This document shows, one piece after another, positions 14,961 through 26,428 of a stretch of 64,000 bases of DNA. Origin of the DNA: Rhodocyclales bacterium (GTDB taxonomy: Bacteria > Pseudomonadota > Gammaproteobacteria > Burkholderiales > Rhodocyclaceae); assembly GCA_016214145.1 (NCBI GenBank), contig JACRPA010000005.1, forward strand, positions 372,001 through 436,000, written 5' to 3'. Made by a program: the position numbers and the translations under genes. Positions within the stretch are counted from its first letter, which is position 1. Every line of letters begins with the position of its first letter. Under the pieces are notes generated by a model, which was not told the DNA's origin, searched no databases, and was given only the letters and a program-made list of their open reading frames with translations.

Positions 14961-17402
14961 ATGACTGACGCCTGCTACCACTGCGGTCTGCCCATTCCGC
15001 AGGGAACGCACTTCACAGTGGCCATTGAAGGCGCGCCGCGCGAGATGTGCTGCGCAGGCTGCCAGGCGGTGGCGCAGGCCATCGTCGACAACGGCCTGGA
15101 CGACTACTACCGGCATCGCGACGCGCTGCCGGAAAGCCCGCGCGAGGCGCTGCCCGCCGTACTGGGGGAACTGACTTTGTTCGACCACCCCGACGTGCAG
15201 AAGAGCTTCGTGCGGCCGCTGTCGGAACACGAGCGCGAGGCTTCCCTCATCCTCGAGGGCATCACCTGCGCCGCCTGCGTCTGGCTCAACGAACAGCACC
15301 TGACGCGCCAGGCCGGCGTCACCGCGGTGGAGATCAATTACGCCACGCGGCGCGCCCGCGTGCGCTGGGACGAGCGGCGCATCAGGCTCTCCGGCATCCT
15401 TGCCGCGGTGGCCGCCATCGGCTACCAGGCCCATCCCTACGATGCCGCCCGTTCCGAAGAGATCGCCAAGCGCGAGCGCCGCGCCGCGCTGTGGCGCCTC
15501 TTCGTCGCCGGCTTCGGCATGATGCAGGTGATGATGTACGCGGTGCCGGTGTACCTGGCGGACGAGGGCACCATGAGCGCCGACATCGAAAGCCTCATGC
15601 GCTGGGCCAGCCTGGCGCTGACGCTGCCGGTCGTGCTGTATTCCGCCGCGCCCTTCTTCCGCAATGCCTGGCGCGACCTGCGCCTGAAGCGCGTCGGCAT
15701 GGACGTGCCGGTGGCGCTGGGCGTCGGCGCCGCCTTTGCCGCCAGCCTGTGGGCGACGCTCATCGACGCGGGGGAGGTGTATTTCGACTCCGTGACGATG
15801 TTCGTTTTCCTGCTGCTGGGCGGGCGCTACCTGGAGATGCTGGCGCGCCACCAGTCCGTGCGCTCCATTGAGCGCGTCGGCCGCGCCCTGCCGGCGTTTG
15901 CCGAACGATTGATGGCATTTCCTTCGGTGCAGACGGAGCGCGTCGTGGTATCTGCGTTGCTGCCGGGCGACCGCGTGCTGGTGGCGCCCGGGCAGACCAT
16001 TCCCGCCGACGGCAGCGTGCTGCAGGGGGAGAGCGAGGTCGATGAATCCCTGCTCACCGGCGAGAGCCGTCCTATCGCCAAGGCAGTGGGCAGCGATTTG
16101 ACTGGAGGCACGGTGAACATCCGCAGTCCACTGGTTCAGCAGGTGGAGAGGGTCGGCGAGGCAACGCGGCTCGCCTCGATCGTGCGCCTGATGGAACGGG
16201 CCATCACCGAGAAGCCGCGCGTGGTGCAGTTGGCGGATCGTGTTGCCGCCTGGTTCGTCGCGGCACTGCTGCTCCTGGCGCTGGCCACCGGCATCGTCTG
16301 GAGCCAGATCGACGCCTCGCGCGCCTTGTGGATATTCGTGTCGGTGCTGGTGGTGAGCTGTCCCTGCGCGCTTTCACTCGCCACGCCGGCGGCGCTGGCG
16401 GTGGCCACCGGCGCCTTTTCGCGCCTGGGCCTGCTCGTATCGCGCGGCCACGCCATCGAGACCCTGGCCCGCGCCGACCACTTCGTGTTCGACAAGACCG
16501 GCACGCTGACCTGGGGCAGGCTGCGCCTGCGCGAGACGCTGCCGCTTGCCGGCGTGTCGGTTGTGGAGGCAATGCGCCTGGCGGCTGCGCTGGAGCAGGG
16601 GTCTGAACACGCCATTGGCGCTGCGCTGCGCGAAGCAGTTGCGAACGGAGGATCCCTGCCCGTGGCGCAGGCGCCGCAAAGCTTCACCGGCCAGGGGGTC
16701 GAGGGCGTGCTCGATGGCCGCAAACTGCGCCTGGGTCGGGCGGAGTTTGCCGGCGAGCTGCACAAACAGCCGCTGCCGTTCGAAGCGGAGGCGCTATTCG
16801 CCACGGGCGACACCTGCGTGACGCTCGCCGATGAGACCGGTTGGCTCGCCGTTTTCCGGCTTGGCGATCAATTGCGTGCCGAGGCGGGCGAACTGGTGCG
16901 CCGATTGCGCGATCTCGGTTGCCGCGTGACCCTCCTCTCCGGCGATTCGGCCGAGGCGGTGGGGCAGGTGGCGGCGGCTTTGGTTCTCGAAGATGCCCAC
17001 GGCCGCATGACGCCGCAGGGAAAGCACGACTTCATTGCCGCCTTGCAGGCGCAGGGCGCCGTGGTGGCGATGGTGGGGGATGGGGTGAACGATGCGCCGG
17101 TGCTGGCCCAGGCCCAGGTTTCCGTGGCCATGGGCGGGGGGACGGAACTCGCACGCAACCAGGCCGACATCGTGCTGCTGGGTGAGAATCTCGAACGCCT
17201 GGCCGAGGCCGTGGCGCTGGCGCGGCGCACCCGGCGCATCGTGCGGCAGAATCTGGCTTGGGCTTTCGCCTACAATCTGTCCGCCATTCCGCTGGCGATG
17301 CTGGGCTGGATCACCCCCTGGATGGCCGGCATCGGCATGTCGGCCAGTTCCCTGCTGGTGGTTGCCAATGCGCTGCGGCTTCAGCGCGGGGGGCAAAACT
17401 GA
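14961..17402 (+). CDS. ccoI: Cation (Cu)-translocating P-type ATPase CcoI/FixI
   Basis: N-terminal CYHCGLPIP...MCCAGCQAV, HMA ITCAACVW, CPC membrane motif, DKTGTLT, GDGVNDAPVL; followed by ccoS. ORF-track start at 14886 lies in the REP element, so ATG 14961 preferred. Confidence 0.93.
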   Translation: MTDACYHCGLPIPQGTHFTVAIEGAPREMCCAGCQAVAQAIVDNGLDDYYRHRDALPESPREALPAVLGELTLFDHPDVQKSFVRPLSEHEREASLILEGITCAACVWLNEQHLTRQAGVTAVEINYATRRARVRWDERRIRLSGILAAVAAIGYQAHPYDAARSEEIAKRERRAALWRLFVAGFGMMQVMMYAVPVYLADEGTMSADIESLMRWASLALTLPVVLYSAAPFFRNAWRDLRLKRVGMDVPVALGVGAAFAASLWATLIDAGEVYFDSVTMFVFLLLGGRYLEMLARHQSVRSIERVGRALPAFAERLMAFPSVQTERVVVSALLPGDRVLVAPGQTIPADGSVLQGESEVDESLLTGESRPIAKAVGSDLTGGTVNIRSPLVQQVERVGEATRLASIVRLMERAITEKPRVVQLADRVAAWFVAALLLLALATGIVWSQIDASRALWIFVSVLVVSCPCALSLATPAALAVATGAFSRLGLLVSRGHAIETLARADHFVFDKTGTLTWGRLRLRETLPLAGVSVVEAMRLAAALEQGSEHAIGAALREAVANGGSLPVAQAPQSFTGQGVEGVLDGRKLRLGRAEFAGELHKQPLPFEAEALFATGDTCVTLADETGWLAVFRLGDQLRAEAGELVRRLRDLGCRVTLLSGDSAEAVGQVAAALVLEDAHGRMTPQGKHDFIAALQAQGAVVAMVGDGVNDAPVLAQAQVSVAMGGGTELARNQADIVLLGENLERLAEAVALARRTRRIVRQNLAWAFAYNLSAIPLAMLGWITPWMAGIGMSASSLLVVANALRLQRGGQN

Positions 17403-17605
17403 TGGAAATCCTCTACCTGCTGATCCCGCTTTCGGTCGTACTGGTCTTCGTGATCGGCGCGATCTTCTGGTGGTCGGTGAAAAGCGGGCAATTCGACGAT
17501 ATGGAAGGGCCGGGCTATCGCATGCTGATGGATGACGACCGCCCCAGACCCCAGGACAATGCGACCCAGGGTTCGGTCGATGCGGGGACAGAACAGCAAA
17601 AGTAA
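17402..17605 (+). CDS. ccoS: cbb3-type cytochrome oxidase assembly protein CcoS
   Basis: MEILYLLIPLSVVLVFVIGAIFWWSVKSGQFDDMEGPGYRML. Confidence 0.93.
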   Translation: MEILYLLIPLSVVLVFVIGAIFWWSVKSGQFDDMEGPGYRMLMDDDRPRPQDNATQGSVDAGTEQQK

Positions 17606-17625
17606 TGTCCGGAATCGATCACAAT

Positions 17626-17639
17626 TTGACCCACATCAA
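17626..17639. promoter_or_regulatory. FNR/ANR box TTGAC-CCAC-ATCAA
   Basis: Matches TTGAY-N4-ATCAA; centre 17632.5, with CATACT at 17662-17667 giving predicted TSS about 17674 (-41.5). Confidence 0.75.
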
Positions 17640-17673
17640 TTCTTTCTCAAGGTTCTTTATCCATACTTCACGC

Positions 17674-17752
17674 AAGGTTTTGGGCTTGGCAACGAGCCCG
17701 GAGTCTTGTCTCTCTGTTGGGGTTGGGGTGCGCATTGCGCACCCTTTTTTTT
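17674..17752 (+). ncRNA. Candidate FNR-activated small RNA
   Basis: FNR box and -10 upstream, 5' stem GGGCU/AGCCC, U/C-rich single-stranded stretch, perfect terminator hairpin and U8; no convincing CDS in the spacer. Confidence 0.6.
17726..17752 (+). terminator. Rho-independent terminator
   Basis: GGGTGCGC-ATT-GCGCACCC followed by TTTTTTTT. Confidence 0.9.
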
Positions 17753-17840
17753 GCCCCGGCATGCCTGGCAGGGATCCCCGGATATGCGGTGCGAGCCATC
17801 ATTGCCGGCTCAGGATTTGCGCGACCATGGCCAATTTGTA

Positions 17841-17886: not shown

Positions 17887-18456
17887 ATGATCCTGTCCCG
17901 CACCAGCCAATACGCCATTCAGGCCCTGATTTTTATCGCAACCCAGCCCCGCGGGGTTCCCGTGCTGATTCGCACAGTCGCCGAGCACCTCGGCGTCCCC
18001 CCGCCTTACCTTGCGAAAATCATGCAAAGCCTCGGCCGTGGAAAACTGGTCGATTCCTTTCGCGGGCGGCAGGGCGGCGTGTGTCTGCGCGAGGGCGCCG
18101 AAACGACCGATTTGATGCAGATTCTCACCCTGATTGAAGGTCCGGGCTTGACAGAGAATTGCGTGCTCGGGCTGAAGGTATGCGGCGACGAAACGGCCTG
18201 TCCCGTGCATACCCAGTGGAAACCGATCAAGACACGAATCGTGAATCTCCTGAATCAGCAGACTCTGGGCAAGCTCGCCGCGGCCGTCCGGAGCGGGAAG
18301 TATCGGCTCACGGACCTACCGTTTGCCGCGCTGGAATCCGGGGGTGCCGCGAGAGGCGACGTGCAGGCGATACTTGCCCGTCCGCCAGGAGTCCGGGCGC
18401 GCCGTGCAGGCAGTGCGAAGTCGGTGCGCGCCGAAAACGTTGGCAAGCGCCCATAA
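17887..18456 (+). CDS. Rrf2 family transcriptional regulator with putative Fe-S cysteines
   Basis: MILSRTSQYAIQALIFIATQ...VAEHLGVPPPYLAKIMQSLGRGKLVDSFRGRQGG wHTH; ENCVLGLKVCGDETACPVH three-Cys cluster. Confidence 0.9.
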   Translation: MILSRTSQYAIQALIFIATQPRGVPVLIRTVAEHLGVPPPYLAKIMQSLGRGKLVDSFRGRQGGVCLREGAETTDLMQILTLIEGPGLTENCVLGLKVCGDETACPVHTQWKPIKTRIVNLLNQQTLGKLAAAVRSGKYRLTDLPFAALESGGAARGDVQAILARPPGVRARRAGSAKSVRAENVGKRP

Positions 18457-18481
18457 TTGCGCAACAGAGACGGTATTAGAG

Positions 18482-19237
18482 ATGTCCGGATCGAAGGTAA
18501 CGCCACTCCGTTCCGCGCTCGGTCAGCGGTGCGAGCCCATTGCCTGCGCGCAATGCGGAGTCTATCAATTGTGCCTTCCCCTCGGCCTGCATCAGGCCGA
18601 CTTGACGCTGCTGGAGAGCATCGTCAAACGCAAGGAAACCTACAAGCGCGGGCAACTCCTCTTCAGATCGGGTGAGCGCTTCGATTTCATTTATGCGATC
18701 CGCAGCGGCTCGGTAAAGACCTACGTCGGCGCACCGGATGGGCGCGTGCAGATCACCGGCTTCCATATCGCGGGAGAACTTCTGGGATTGAGCGCGCTTG
18801 AGTCGGGGCATTACAGTTGCGAAGCGCGGGCGCTCGAAACGACATCCGTCTGCAAGGTGGAGGCCGAGCGGCTTGGCGAACTGGCGCAAAGAATCCCTTC
18901 GATCCAGTACCAGATGCTGAAAATCATGAGCGGCCATATCCGTCAGGACGAGGAACTCATATTGCTGCTCGGGAAGAGGAATGCCGAGGAACGACTGGCC
19001 GAATACCTGATCGGCCTGTCCAGGCGCTTCGCCGCCCGTAATTATTCCCCGACGCAGTTTCACTTGAGCATGTCCCGCAGCGACATCGGCAACTATCTCG
19101 GCATTGCCGAGGAGACAGTCTGTCGCGTTTTGACCCGCTTCCAAAATGCAGGTCTCATCGCCACAAATCGGCGCTACGTTCGTCTGATCGATCTCAGGCA
19201 ACTGGAGGCGGTGGCGCGAATAAGCGTTGCCGCCTGA
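18482..19237 (+). CDS. FNR-type Crp/Fnr regulator (paralog 1)
   Basis: N-terminal CAQCGVYQLC, central HYSCEA cysteine, C-terminal HTH FHLSMSRSDIGNYLGIAEETVCRVLTRFQ. Confidence 0.9.
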   Translation: MSGSKVTPLRSALGQRCEPIACAQCGVYQLCLPLGLHQADLTLLESIVKRKETYKRGQLLFRSGERFDFIYAIRSGSVKTYVGAPDGRVQITGFHIAGELLGLSALESGHYSCEARALETTSVCKVEAERLGELAQRIPSIQYQMLKIMSGHIRQDEELILLLGKRNAEERLAEYLIGLSRRFAARNYSPTQFHLSMSRSDIGNYLGIAEETVCRVLTRFQNAGLIATNRRYVRLIDLRQLEAVARISVAA

Positions 19238-19357
19238 CCCCCGGCCCGCTTGTCGATTCCCGCACCTGCGCCAGCCTTTCCCCCGTTTCACCGGCAATTG
19301 AGTGCTCAGTTGGGGCAAGCCATTTGATTTGCAGCGTTACTTCTGCGGACACAAAGG

Positions 19358-19371
19358 TTGACGCATGTCAT
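19358..19371. promoter_or_regulatory. FNR-like box TTGAC-GCAT-GTCAT
   Basis: One position off a perfect palindrome; upstream of bacteriohemerythrin. Confidence 0.65.
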
Positions 19372-19407
19372 GGTTTCGGAATGACCGCCGTTCTTTTCCT
19401 GTATTAA

Positions 19408-19419
19408 GATAAATCTATC
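19408..19419. promoter_or_regulatory. GATA-N4-TATC operator candidate (within GTATTAAGATAAATCTATCC)
   Basis: Shares ATTAAGATA-N4-TATC with the rrf2 promoter. Confidence 0.5.
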
Positions 19420-19444
19420 CGATTATCTTTACAGGGGGGGCGTG

Positions 19445-19918
19445 ATGGATGCCTTGTTTGCCTGGTCCGACAATCTAAGCGTCGGCATCCAGGAAATCGA
19501 TGAGCAGCACAAGGTGCTGGTTGGATTGCTCAACGAACTCCATTCGGCAATCGCCGGACACAGGGGATCCACCGAGTGCAGGGGCGTTCTCGACCGGCTC
19601 GCCGAATACACGCGCGTGCACTTCGCCGTGGAGGAGAGCCTGATGCGCATCCTGGGTTACCCGGACCACGAGAACCACAAGCACGAGCACGAGTTGCTTA
19701 CCGCGCAGGTGGTCGATCTTCAGCAAAAGCTGGATGCCGGCAAGGCGGCGATCAGTTTCGAACTCCTCCACTTTCTCAAGGTGTGGCTGACCAGGCACAT
19801 CCACGAAAGCGACAAGCGATACGGAAGCCATTTTCTCGCGCGCGGCATCGAGGCTCGCTGGCCGGCGAAGGAAGCCGCCCCGGAGAAGAGGCGCTCCTGG
19901 ATGTTCTGGAGTCGCTGA
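19445..19918 (+). CDS. Bacteriohemerythrin
   Basis: W...LSVGIQEIDEQHKVLVGLLNELHSA, HFAVEESLM, HENHKHEHELL, HIHESDKRYG iron ligands; alternative GTG start at 19442. Confidence 0.94.
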   Translation: MDALFAWSDNLSVGIQEIDEQHKVLVGLLNELHSAIAGHRGSTECRGVLDRLAEYTRVHFAVEESLMRILGYPDHENHKHEHELLTAQVVDLQQKLDAGKAAISFELLHFLKVWLTRHIHESDKRYGSHFLARGIEARWPAKEAAPEKRRSWMFWSR

Positions 19919-19960
19919 ACCGATGCATTCAGCACCTGTTTTCTACTTGAGGAGTTCTTG

Positions 19961-20611
19961 ATGAAACGATCGATAAAACGGCTTCTGGCCCTGGCAGTCG
20001 CCTCCGCAGCATTGCCTGCGCACACGGCGTTCGCCGACGATGGCCCCTGGATGGTTCGCGCGCGCGCGGTCTATCTCGACACGGCAAACAAGTCCGGGGC
20101 GATCCCGCTGCTTGCCGTGCCGGCGGATGCCATCCACGTCGCTGACAAGACCATTCCGGAAGTCGATATCAGCTATTTTTTCACCAAGAACATCGCGGCC
20201 GAACTGATCCTTACCGTGCCCCAGAAGCATGGCGTAAAGGTCACGCAAAGCGCTATCGGATCCTTCAAGGCAGGCAGCTTCAGGCATCTGCCGCCGACGC
20301 TGACGCTGCAGTACCACTTCCTTCCGGACAGCCAGTTCCGTCCTTACATCGGCGCCGGCATCAACTACACGCGCATCACTAGCGACGACCTGGCCGTGCC
20401 AGGGGTCACCAAACTGCATCTCGATAACGATTCCTGGGGCGGGGCGCTGCAGGCGGGTGTCGATGCGAAACTCGGCAAGAGCCTGTTCCTCAACCTTGAC
20501 GTCAAGAAGATCTACATTCGCAGTGACGTGACGGCGTCCGGCCTGGGCAAGATCAGCCATGTCAAGGTTGATCCGCTTGCGGTCGGCATCGGTCTCGGCT
20601 GGCGTTTCTGA
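19961..20611 (+). CDS. OmpW family outer membrane protein
   Basis: Signal peptide; PWMVRARAVYLDTANKSG, PEVDISYFFTKNIAAELILTVPQKH, LPPTLTLQYHFLPDSQFRPYIGAGINYT. Confidence 0.93.
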   Translation: MKRSIKRLLALAVASAALPAHTAFADDGPWMVRARAVYLDTANKSGAIPLLAVPADAIHVADKTIPEVDISYFFTKNIAAELILTVPQKHGVKVTQSAIGSFKAGSFRHLPPTLTLQYHFLPDSQFRPYIGAGINYTRITSDDLAVPGVTKLHLDNDSWGGALQAGVDAKLGKSLFLNLDVKKIYIRSDVTASGLGKISHVKVDPLAVGIGLGWRF

Positions 20612-20719: not shown

Positions 20720-20733
20720 TTGACATGAATCAA
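20720..20733. promoter_or_regulatory. FNR/ANR box TTGAC-ATGA-ATCAA upstream of ccoN
   Basis: Consensus match; TATCCT -10 at 20756-20761 gives TSS about 20768 (-41.5). Confidence 0.8.
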
Positions 20734-20780: not shown

Positions 20781-20830
20781 TTGCCTGTGCCCGAATACAA
20801 TCCTGCATTCCCAAAGTGAGGCCTTCCGTT

Positions 20831-22255
20831 ATGGACAACCAAGCGACGTACAACTACAAGGTAGTGCGCCAGTTCGCCGTGATGACGGTGATATGGGGCA
20901 TTGTCGGCATGCTGGTCGGCGTGATCATTGCCGCCCAGTTGGTCTGGCCGGAACTCAATCTGCATGAGTTTCTCGGTTACGGGCGATTGCGGCCGCTGCA
21001 CACCAATGCCGTGATCTTCGCCTTTGGCGGCTGCGCCCTGTTTGCCACCTCCTACTACGTGGTGCAGCGCACCTGCCACACGCCGCTGTTTGCGCCGGGC
21101 CTGGCCGGCTTCACCTTCTGGGGCTGGCAACTGGTGATTGTCCTCGCGGCGGTGACGTTGCCGCTGGGCATGACCAGCGGCAAGGAATACGCCGAGCTCG
21201 AGTGGCCGATCGACATCCTGATTACGCTGGTGTGGGTTTCCTACGCGGTGGTCTTCTTCGGCACCATCATGAAGCGCAAGGTGCCGCACATCTACGTCGC
21301 CAACTGGTTCTACGGCGGCTTCATCCTCACCGTGGCGCTGCTGCATCTGGTCAACAGCTGCGAGATTCCGGTCTCGCTGACCAAGAGCTACTCCTGCTAC
21401 CCCGGCGTGCAGGACGCCATGATCCAGTGGTGGTACGGCCACAACGCGGTGGGCTTCTTCCTCACCGCCGGCTTCCTGGGGATGATGTACTACTTCGTGC
21501 CCAAGCAGGCCGAGCGCCCGGTGTATTCCTACCGCCTCTCGGTGGTGCACTTCTGGGCGCTGATCTTCACCTACATGTGGGCCGGCCCGCACCATCTTCA
21601 CTACACCGCGCTGCCCGACTGGGCCCAGTCGGTCGGCATGATCTTCTCGCTGATCCTGCTGGCGCCTTCCTGGGGCGGCATGATCAACGGCATCATGACC
21701 ATGTCGGGCGCCTGGCACAAACTGCGCGACGACCCGATCCTCAAGTTCCTCATCACCAGCCTGTCCTTCTACGGCATGAGCACCTTCGAGGGCCCGATGA
21801 TGTCGATCAAGACGGTGAACGCCCTGTCGCACTACACCGACTGGACGGTCGGCCACGTGCATAGCGGCGCCCTCGGCTGGGTGGCGATGATCTCCATCGG
21901 CTGCATCTACTACCTGATCCCGCGCCTGTTCGGCAAGGCCCAGATGCACAGCGTCAAGCTGATTACCGCGCACTTCTGGATCGCCACCATCGGCGTCGTG
22001 CTCTACATCGCCGCCATGTGGATTGCCGGGGTGATGCAGGGGCTCATGTGGCGCGCCACCAACCCGGACGGCACGCTCACCTACGCCTTCGTCGAGAGCG
22101 TCAAGTCCACCTATCCGTTCTGGACCATCCGCCTGCTGGGCGGCCTGATGTTCCTCGGCGGCATGCTGCTGATGGCCTGGAACGTCTTCAAGACCATCGC
22201 CGGCGGCAAGGCCTATGACGCACCGGTGCTGGCGCCTGCCGGGCACCACGCCTGA
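20831..22255 (+). CDS. ccoN: cbb3-type cytochrome c oxidase subunit I
   Basis: [88 protein letters not shown]. Confidence 0.97.
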
Positions 22256-26146: not shown

Positions 26147-26428
26147 ATGCAAAGACTGATCTGGATCCTGTGGCCGTCCTTCGTCGTGGCCGGCATCGCC
26201 GAGGCGGTTTTTTTCACCCTTATCGATCCGCAGGAGCTCTACCTGTTCGGCGAACCGGTGAGCTTCTCGCGCATCGCGACCTATTCCCTCGGCTTTTTCG
26301 CCTTCTGGGCGCTGTGTGCGGCTTCCAGCATGTTCACCTGCTTCATCCAGCGCTCCTCGCGTGAAATCAACAGCTGCCCCCTGCCGAAGCGCGAACGTCC
26401 CTCCGACTGTCCCAAGTTCGACGAGTAG
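26147..26428 (+). CDS. Small two-TM membrane protein, unknown function
   Basis: MQRLIWILWPSFVVAGIAEAVFFTLIDPQELYLFGEPVSFSRIATYSLGFFAFWALCAASSMFTCFIQ; SD GGAGAGAG. Confidence 0.75.
   Translation: MQRLIWILWPSFVVAGIAEAVFFTLIDPQELYLFGEPVSFSRIATYSLGFFAFWALCAASSMFTCFIQRSSREINSCPLPKRERPSDCPKFDE

Follow-up and report, generated by a model that had tools for sequence, protein, structure and literature searches.

Between ccoS and rrf2 in the cbb3 oxidase locus of a Rhodocyclales bacterium lies a conserved element which we interpret, with a probability of roughly 0.86, as a stand-alone gene for an FNR-activated small RNA that would act in trans on aerobic and oxidative-stress genes, from superoxide dismutases and peroxidases to sulfur and iron-sulfur genes, by blocking their ribosome-binding sites (RBSs). 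The anatomy of the gene, its conservation and the position and pairing of the target sites are read from the sequence, and from these we infer the transcript, its dependence on FNR and the repression. Coordinates refer to the window, i.e. the whole stretch of 64,000 nucleotides that was analyzed, and are collected in Table 1.

Anatomy of the gene and its place in the cbb3 oxidase locus

Table 1. Features of the putative small RNA gene and its neighborhood in the window
Feature	Position	Strand	Remarks
ccoS (FixS)	17402..17605	+	Gene directly upstream; synteny anchor
FNR box TTGACCCACATCAA	17626..17639	+	Class II position, about -41.5; centre 17632.5
-10 element CATACT	17662..17667	+	22 nt 3' of the FNR box
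Predicted sRNA, about 79 nt	17674..17752	+	Sequence, fold, conservation
5' hairpin, 15 bp	17674..17707	+	17674-17688 pairs with 17693-17707; fold and covariation
Target-pairing core GUCUCUCUGUUGGGGUUGGGG	17708..17728	+	Conserved; antisense to RBSs; invariant 18-mer at 17711-17728
Intrinsic terminator	17725..17752	+	Stem 17725-17745, then T8
Separate FNR box TTGACATGAATCAA of ccoN	20720..20733	+	ccoN coding region 20816-22255

The FNR box follows the stop codon of ccoS after a gap of 20 nt, and with a transcription start at 17674 its centre falls at -41.5. Box, CATACT element and start had all been proposed in a preliminary description of the locus and were recovered at the same positions. The promoter is thus very probably a class II FNR promoter that would be switched on at low oxygen. 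Of the RNA layout proposed in the same description, the 5' hairpin, the unpaired U/C stretch and the U8 terminator stood, while the length of the stem had to be corrected from 5 to about 15 bp; GUCUU is therefore part of the stem, which leaves GUCUCUCUGUUGGGGUU as the unpaired stretch running into the terminator. The predicted 79-nt RNA folds with -37.6 kcal/mol as compared to -24.0 kcal/mol for dinucleotide shuffles (z -4.7, none of 200 shuffles as good). In total, the 64-kb window contains five perfect FNR-type boxes (at 17626, 20720, 28724, 32079 and 36329), where about 0.07 would be expected.

The gene arrangement was compared in a sample of 80 fetched, named Rhodocyclales loci, 76 of which were scored as RNA genes. 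In 69 of the 80, ccoS is the nearest recognized gene upstream, and the nearest gene downstream is ccoN, likewise in 69, typically 200-300 bp after the core. With ccoN so close on the same strand in nearly all loci, the element could be conceived as a cis-acting leader or attenuator of ccoNOQP, with transcription from the FNR box reaching the terminator and the terminator gating read-through into ccoN. However, ccoN is equipped with an FNR box of its own 3' of the terminator in 66 of the 76 loci and also in the window (at 20720), so that the RNA gene and ccoN present themselves as separate FNR units. In the window, moreover, rrf2, fnr and ompW take up about 3 kb in between and the RNA is still conserved, and an attenuator would leave the antisense matches at RBSs elsewhere unexplained. 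We rejected this explanation on account of ccoN's own FNR box past the terminator and consider it highly improbable.

The intervening block in the window (17887-20611) consists of rrf2, a gene for a Crp/Fnr-type regulator and ompW. The same rrf2-fnr-ompW insertion is found in one other locus (L098), and in most relatives ccoN directly follows the sRNA gene. Another arrangement is seen in loci L123 and L347 (G058), in which ompW has the invariant core and the terminator as its 3' UTR, right behind the stop codon; in L123 an FNR box is situated 768 nt ahead of the core.

Conservation within the Rhodocyclaceae

The region is kept in 15 of 16 genomes of the window's genus, the exception being a genome that is 53% complete. 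In whole-genome searches the core UCUCUGUUGGGGUUGGGG was detected with at most two mismatches in 99 of 121 Rhodocyclaceae genomes, representing 58 of 68 genera, and in only three of about 290 genomes from the other families of the order. Two of these three matches (L325 and L334) resemble the sRNA gene, including an FNR-type box, which is not true of the third. When a single genome per species was scanned, at least 119 stretches with the exact 18-mer TCTCTGTTGGGGTTGGGG turned up, nearly all of them from Rhodocyclales; among the matches listed are Azoarcus, Aromatoleum, Thauera, Dechloromonas, Azonexus, Zoogloea, Accumulibacter, Uliginosibacterium, Denitromonas and others, plus Tepidiphilus.

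A perfect TTGA[TC]N4[AG]TCAA box precedes the core in 74 of the 76 loci. Among the 65 loci with an exact listed -10 sequence, 62 have it 21-22 nt past the box, and a terminator is present in essentially all orthologous loci. Conservation in 15 of 16 genomes of the genus and the box in 74 of 76 loci exclude a chance origin. Core and terminator are invariant among 13 members of the genus, in which five pairs of the 5' stem are changed on both sides; the covariation score exceeds those of all 500 shuffles, and 96.7% of the cells are paired as opposed to at most 55.5% for slid versions of the stem. With its fixed spacing of box and -10 element, covarying stem, invariant core and terminator, the FNR-activated sRNA of the general FnrS/AniS layout that the preliminary description had suggested has strong comparative support, and box and hairpin proved to be conserved in relatives from 58 genera.

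It is conceivable that the sRNA is real, yet constitutive or controlled by another member of the Crp/Fnr family, e.g. of the Dnr/NnrR type, given that several paralogues can recognize a box of the FNR type and that there is an fnr-like gene 0.8 kb downstream. What speaks against this is that almost all loci have consensus FNR half-sites at class II spacing, that the RNA gene resides inside the cbb3 locus and that the ccoN of this locus bears the same type of box, and we regard constitutive expression or control by a regulator other than FNR as unlikely.

A variant core, TCTCTGTTGGGGTTCGGG, occurs in several genera (L297, L310, L312, L313 and L330), and the sRNA gene is present twice in full in one genome (G010), on separate contigs (L011 and L020).

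Candidate targets of the conserved core

In the mechanism that we propose, falling oxygen would lead FNR to switch on the stand-alone sRNA gene. A single-stranded core, framed by the hairpins of the 5' end and of the terminator, could pair over 12-21 nt with the C-rich/purine RBS regions (CCCCAACCCCAACAGAGA...AUG) of trans-encoded mRNAs. By covering the Shine-Dalgarno sequence together with the C-rich stretch upstream of it, the core would block ribosome entry, and less protein for aerobic and oxidative-stress life would be synthesized. Decay of the mRNA and a role of Hfq may be part of this scheme.

Short second blastn matches were considered as paralogous sRNAs and dismissed as such; they are located on the opposite strand and are the RBSs of protein genes. 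The position of such sites was evaluated, without selection by gene, for 63 sites with at most two mismatches to the antisense core among the matches listed, with the tusE/dsrC sites and the sRNA genes set aside. A site was counted as positive when the ATG of an open reading frame of at least 57 amino acids was found within -2 to +22 of its end. This applies to 39 of the 63 near-perfect sites (62%) as compared to 29% of matched RGAGA sites in the same loci and 14% of random places (binomial p 7e-8), and to seven of 63 in the opposite-strand control. None of five sites from genomes without a detected core lies at an ATG (post hoc hypergeometric value about 0.006, calculated by hand). Two conserved antisense-core sites, L374 (G056) and L376 (G115), have a hairpin behind them instead of a nearby start codon.

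The strongest antisense match belongs to a gene for a 109-aa protein of the TusE/DsrC family (Pfam DsrC, 3.7e-39; NCBIfam TIGR03342 above cut-off) with a single C-terminal cysteine, and the core is antisense to the RBS of tusE/dsrC-like genes in the window's genus and in several other genera. The leader reads CCCCAACCCCAACAGAGAGA-N7-ATG in many members of the genus and CCCCAATCCCGACAGAGAGA in the genome from which the window is derived (G000, contig 3, 970053), where, over 20 nt, the site departs from perfect complementarity at two positions and keeps a G-U pair at both. TusE/DsrC-family genes are present in 32 of 121 genomes and close orthologues (at least 62% identity) in 21 of these. For the 19 genomes that combine a close orthologue with the sRNA, the genome's own core and own leader were paired, and the result was compared with 200 leader shuffles. 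Most leaders outperform every one of their shuffles; weaker ones are those of G068, G130 and G080, which are beaten by two, one and nine shuffles, respectively, and the leader of G055 does not pair with its own core. The orthologues of G047 and G095, genomes in which the sRNA was not found, pair poorly.

In G146, sRNA core (GGGGUUCGGGG) and tusE/dsrC target (CCCCGAACCCC) both deviate, and the target pairs with -45.2 kcal/mol with its own core and with -41.8 kcal/mol with the standard core. This pair constitutes one clear compensatory change. The variant pair of G099 (core GGGGUUAGGGG, tusE target CCCCUAACCC) brings an energy gain near nil (-35.9 versus -35.6 kcal/mol), and the Lipoprotein_15 sites of G146 and G099 do not follow the sRNA variants of their own genomes. 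Owing to the unusually long near-perfect sites and to this compensatory change that occurs in nature, the pairing lends itself directly to testing. Alternatively, the invariant GUUGGGGUUGGGG could serve as a sponge titrating a protein, the RBS matches being secondary. Such a function would be in keeping with two G4 tracts and with a core whose invariance goes beyond the demands of seed pairing with few targets, but it would explain neither the concentration of near-perfect antisense sites at start codons nor the clear compensatory change in G146, and we give a sponge hardly more credit than an attenuator.

Beyond tusE/dsrC, the candidate targets, with their proteins confirmed by Pfam, comprise Cu/Zn-SOD, Fe/Mn-SOD, AhpC/peroxiredoxin, glutathione peroxidase, FolE2, a ferredoxin-reductase-like oxidoreductase (fpr), a WrbA-like flavodoxin, cytochrome bd subunit I (cydA), rubredoxin, Lipoprotein_15, a DsrE-like protein and a Radical-SAM protein that is NifB-like by eye. 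A site at sodC, the gene for Cu/Zn-SOD, exists in G000 (contig 3, 321939) and in G001; that of G000 pairs with -43.4 kcal/mol, with none of 500 shuffles as good. The TusE/DsrC-family gene and sodC are the best candidate targets in the window's genome, and a gene for a small secreted protein (contig 5, 117970; -43.5 kcal/mol) is possibly a further one. A value of -37 kcal/mol is also reached by the start of ccoS, which we do not propose as a target, so that duplex energy alone is not specific and has to be weighed along with site length and conservation.

Family-wide, short sites in front of an ATG (CCCAACAGAGA or CCCAACAGGAGA) are not clearly above permuted controls (33 versus 25 and 32 versus 16); of the 32, about ten represent the antisense of the sRNA itself, and several belong to tusE/dsrC. 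Only long sites are thus convincing, and we do not claim genes with a single short site, e.g. erpA and DUF2249, as targets. Nor could we uphold the small membrane protein gene at 26147, once suggested as a target on the basis of nine contiguous base pairs: its site contains three mismatches in 16 positions, and its orthologues keep the Shine-Dalgarno purines and not the complementary stretch.

The surroundings of the TusE/DsrC-family gene deserve mention in their own right. In many leaders inspected by eye (L264-L275), a dyad resembling IscR type I sites (e.g. ATACCTGACTAATAATATCAAGTAT) overlaps the promoter of the gene, and in G000 a gene for a CDGSH iron-sulfur protein is found on the other side. 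As a lead only, such a dyad would fit a double repression of tusE/dsrC without oxygen.

Relation to known small RNAs

None of the Rfam families reaches its gathering score at the sRNA region. The best sub-threshold scores are those of SorY (RF02651) and SorX (RF02784) from Rhodobacter, a host from another bacterial class, which match over CUCNCUGUUGG plus the terminator and were rejected with 31.9 and 25.2 bits versus gathering scores of 111 and 46.6. The same models return repeatedly with 23-32 bits over CUGUUGG plus the terminator in loci L001, L117 and L130. To our knowledge, FNR has not been described for SorY or SorX. A limited search of the open-access literature retrieved no description of an FNR-dependent sRNA in Azoarcus, Thauera, Aromatoleum or the Rhodocyclaceae. 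By sequence, the RNA would therefore represent a new family of a kind that is already known, the FNR-activated base-pairing sRNAs.

Among betaproteobacterial sRNAs, AniS of Neisseria meningitidis is FNR-controlled and responds to oxygen limitation (PMC4423775). It shares the succession of 5' hairpin, U/C stretch and terminator and lacks the GUUGGGGUUGGGG core; its model (RF02274) was discarded with 20.6 bits versus a gathering score of 50. Among the published sRNAs of betaproteobacteria, S17S of Bordetella comes closest in its way of working; in S17S, a highly conserved C/U-rich single strand is complementary to many RBSs; an S17S-like sequence has been reported in Aromatoleum and Ca. Desulfobacillus denitrificans (PMC11722255). 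A location beside coq7, processing by RNase E and a link to BvgA characterize S17S, whereas the core described here is nearly absent outside the Rhodocyclaceae. The model of the S17S/bdhR1 'toxic sRNAs' of Burkholderia and Bordetella (RF02278) finds no match here at E-values up to 10. As S17S is reported to be near-identical, in the region concerned, to a member of RF02278, we take the two RNAs to be different, a distinction made via the model.

FnrS of E. coli is activated by FNR from -42.5 and represses sodB, folE, folX and cydDC among others (PMC3688515). Both RNAs have their FNR site near -41.5/-42.5, are short, end in an intrinsic terminator and are directed, here by prediction, at genes of aerobic life, with sodB, sodC, folE2 and cydA among the predicted targets in the Rhodocyclaceae. 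In contrast, FnrS resides in E. coli and other enterobacteria, i.e. in a different class of Proteobacteria, matches the RNA neither in sequence nor in Rfam searches even at permissive E-values, and differs from an RNA that is encoded in the cbb3 oxidase locus and whose core would pair over 12-21 nt with C-rich RBSs. Overlapping functions (sod, GTP cyclohydrolase, cytochrome bd) without sequence relation suggest convergence.

Taking all this together, we lean towards a family-wide, FNR-switched sRNA in the cbb3 locus of the Rhodocyclaceae, whose frozen 18-nt core would form the hub of a regulon turning aerobic genes off, with convergence on FnrS-like targets and a target set that turns over between genera; in a few lineages the same core is found in the 3' UTR of ompW. 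If this is true, the Rhodocyclaceae, a large and environmentally important family of facultative anaerobes that includes denitrifiers, perchlorate reducers, degraders of aromatics and phosphate accumulators, would gain the missing post-transcriptional arm of their oxygen response. Together with FnrS, they would then provide a clean case of convergence, in which a different RNA under the same regulator has arrived at overlapping target functions.
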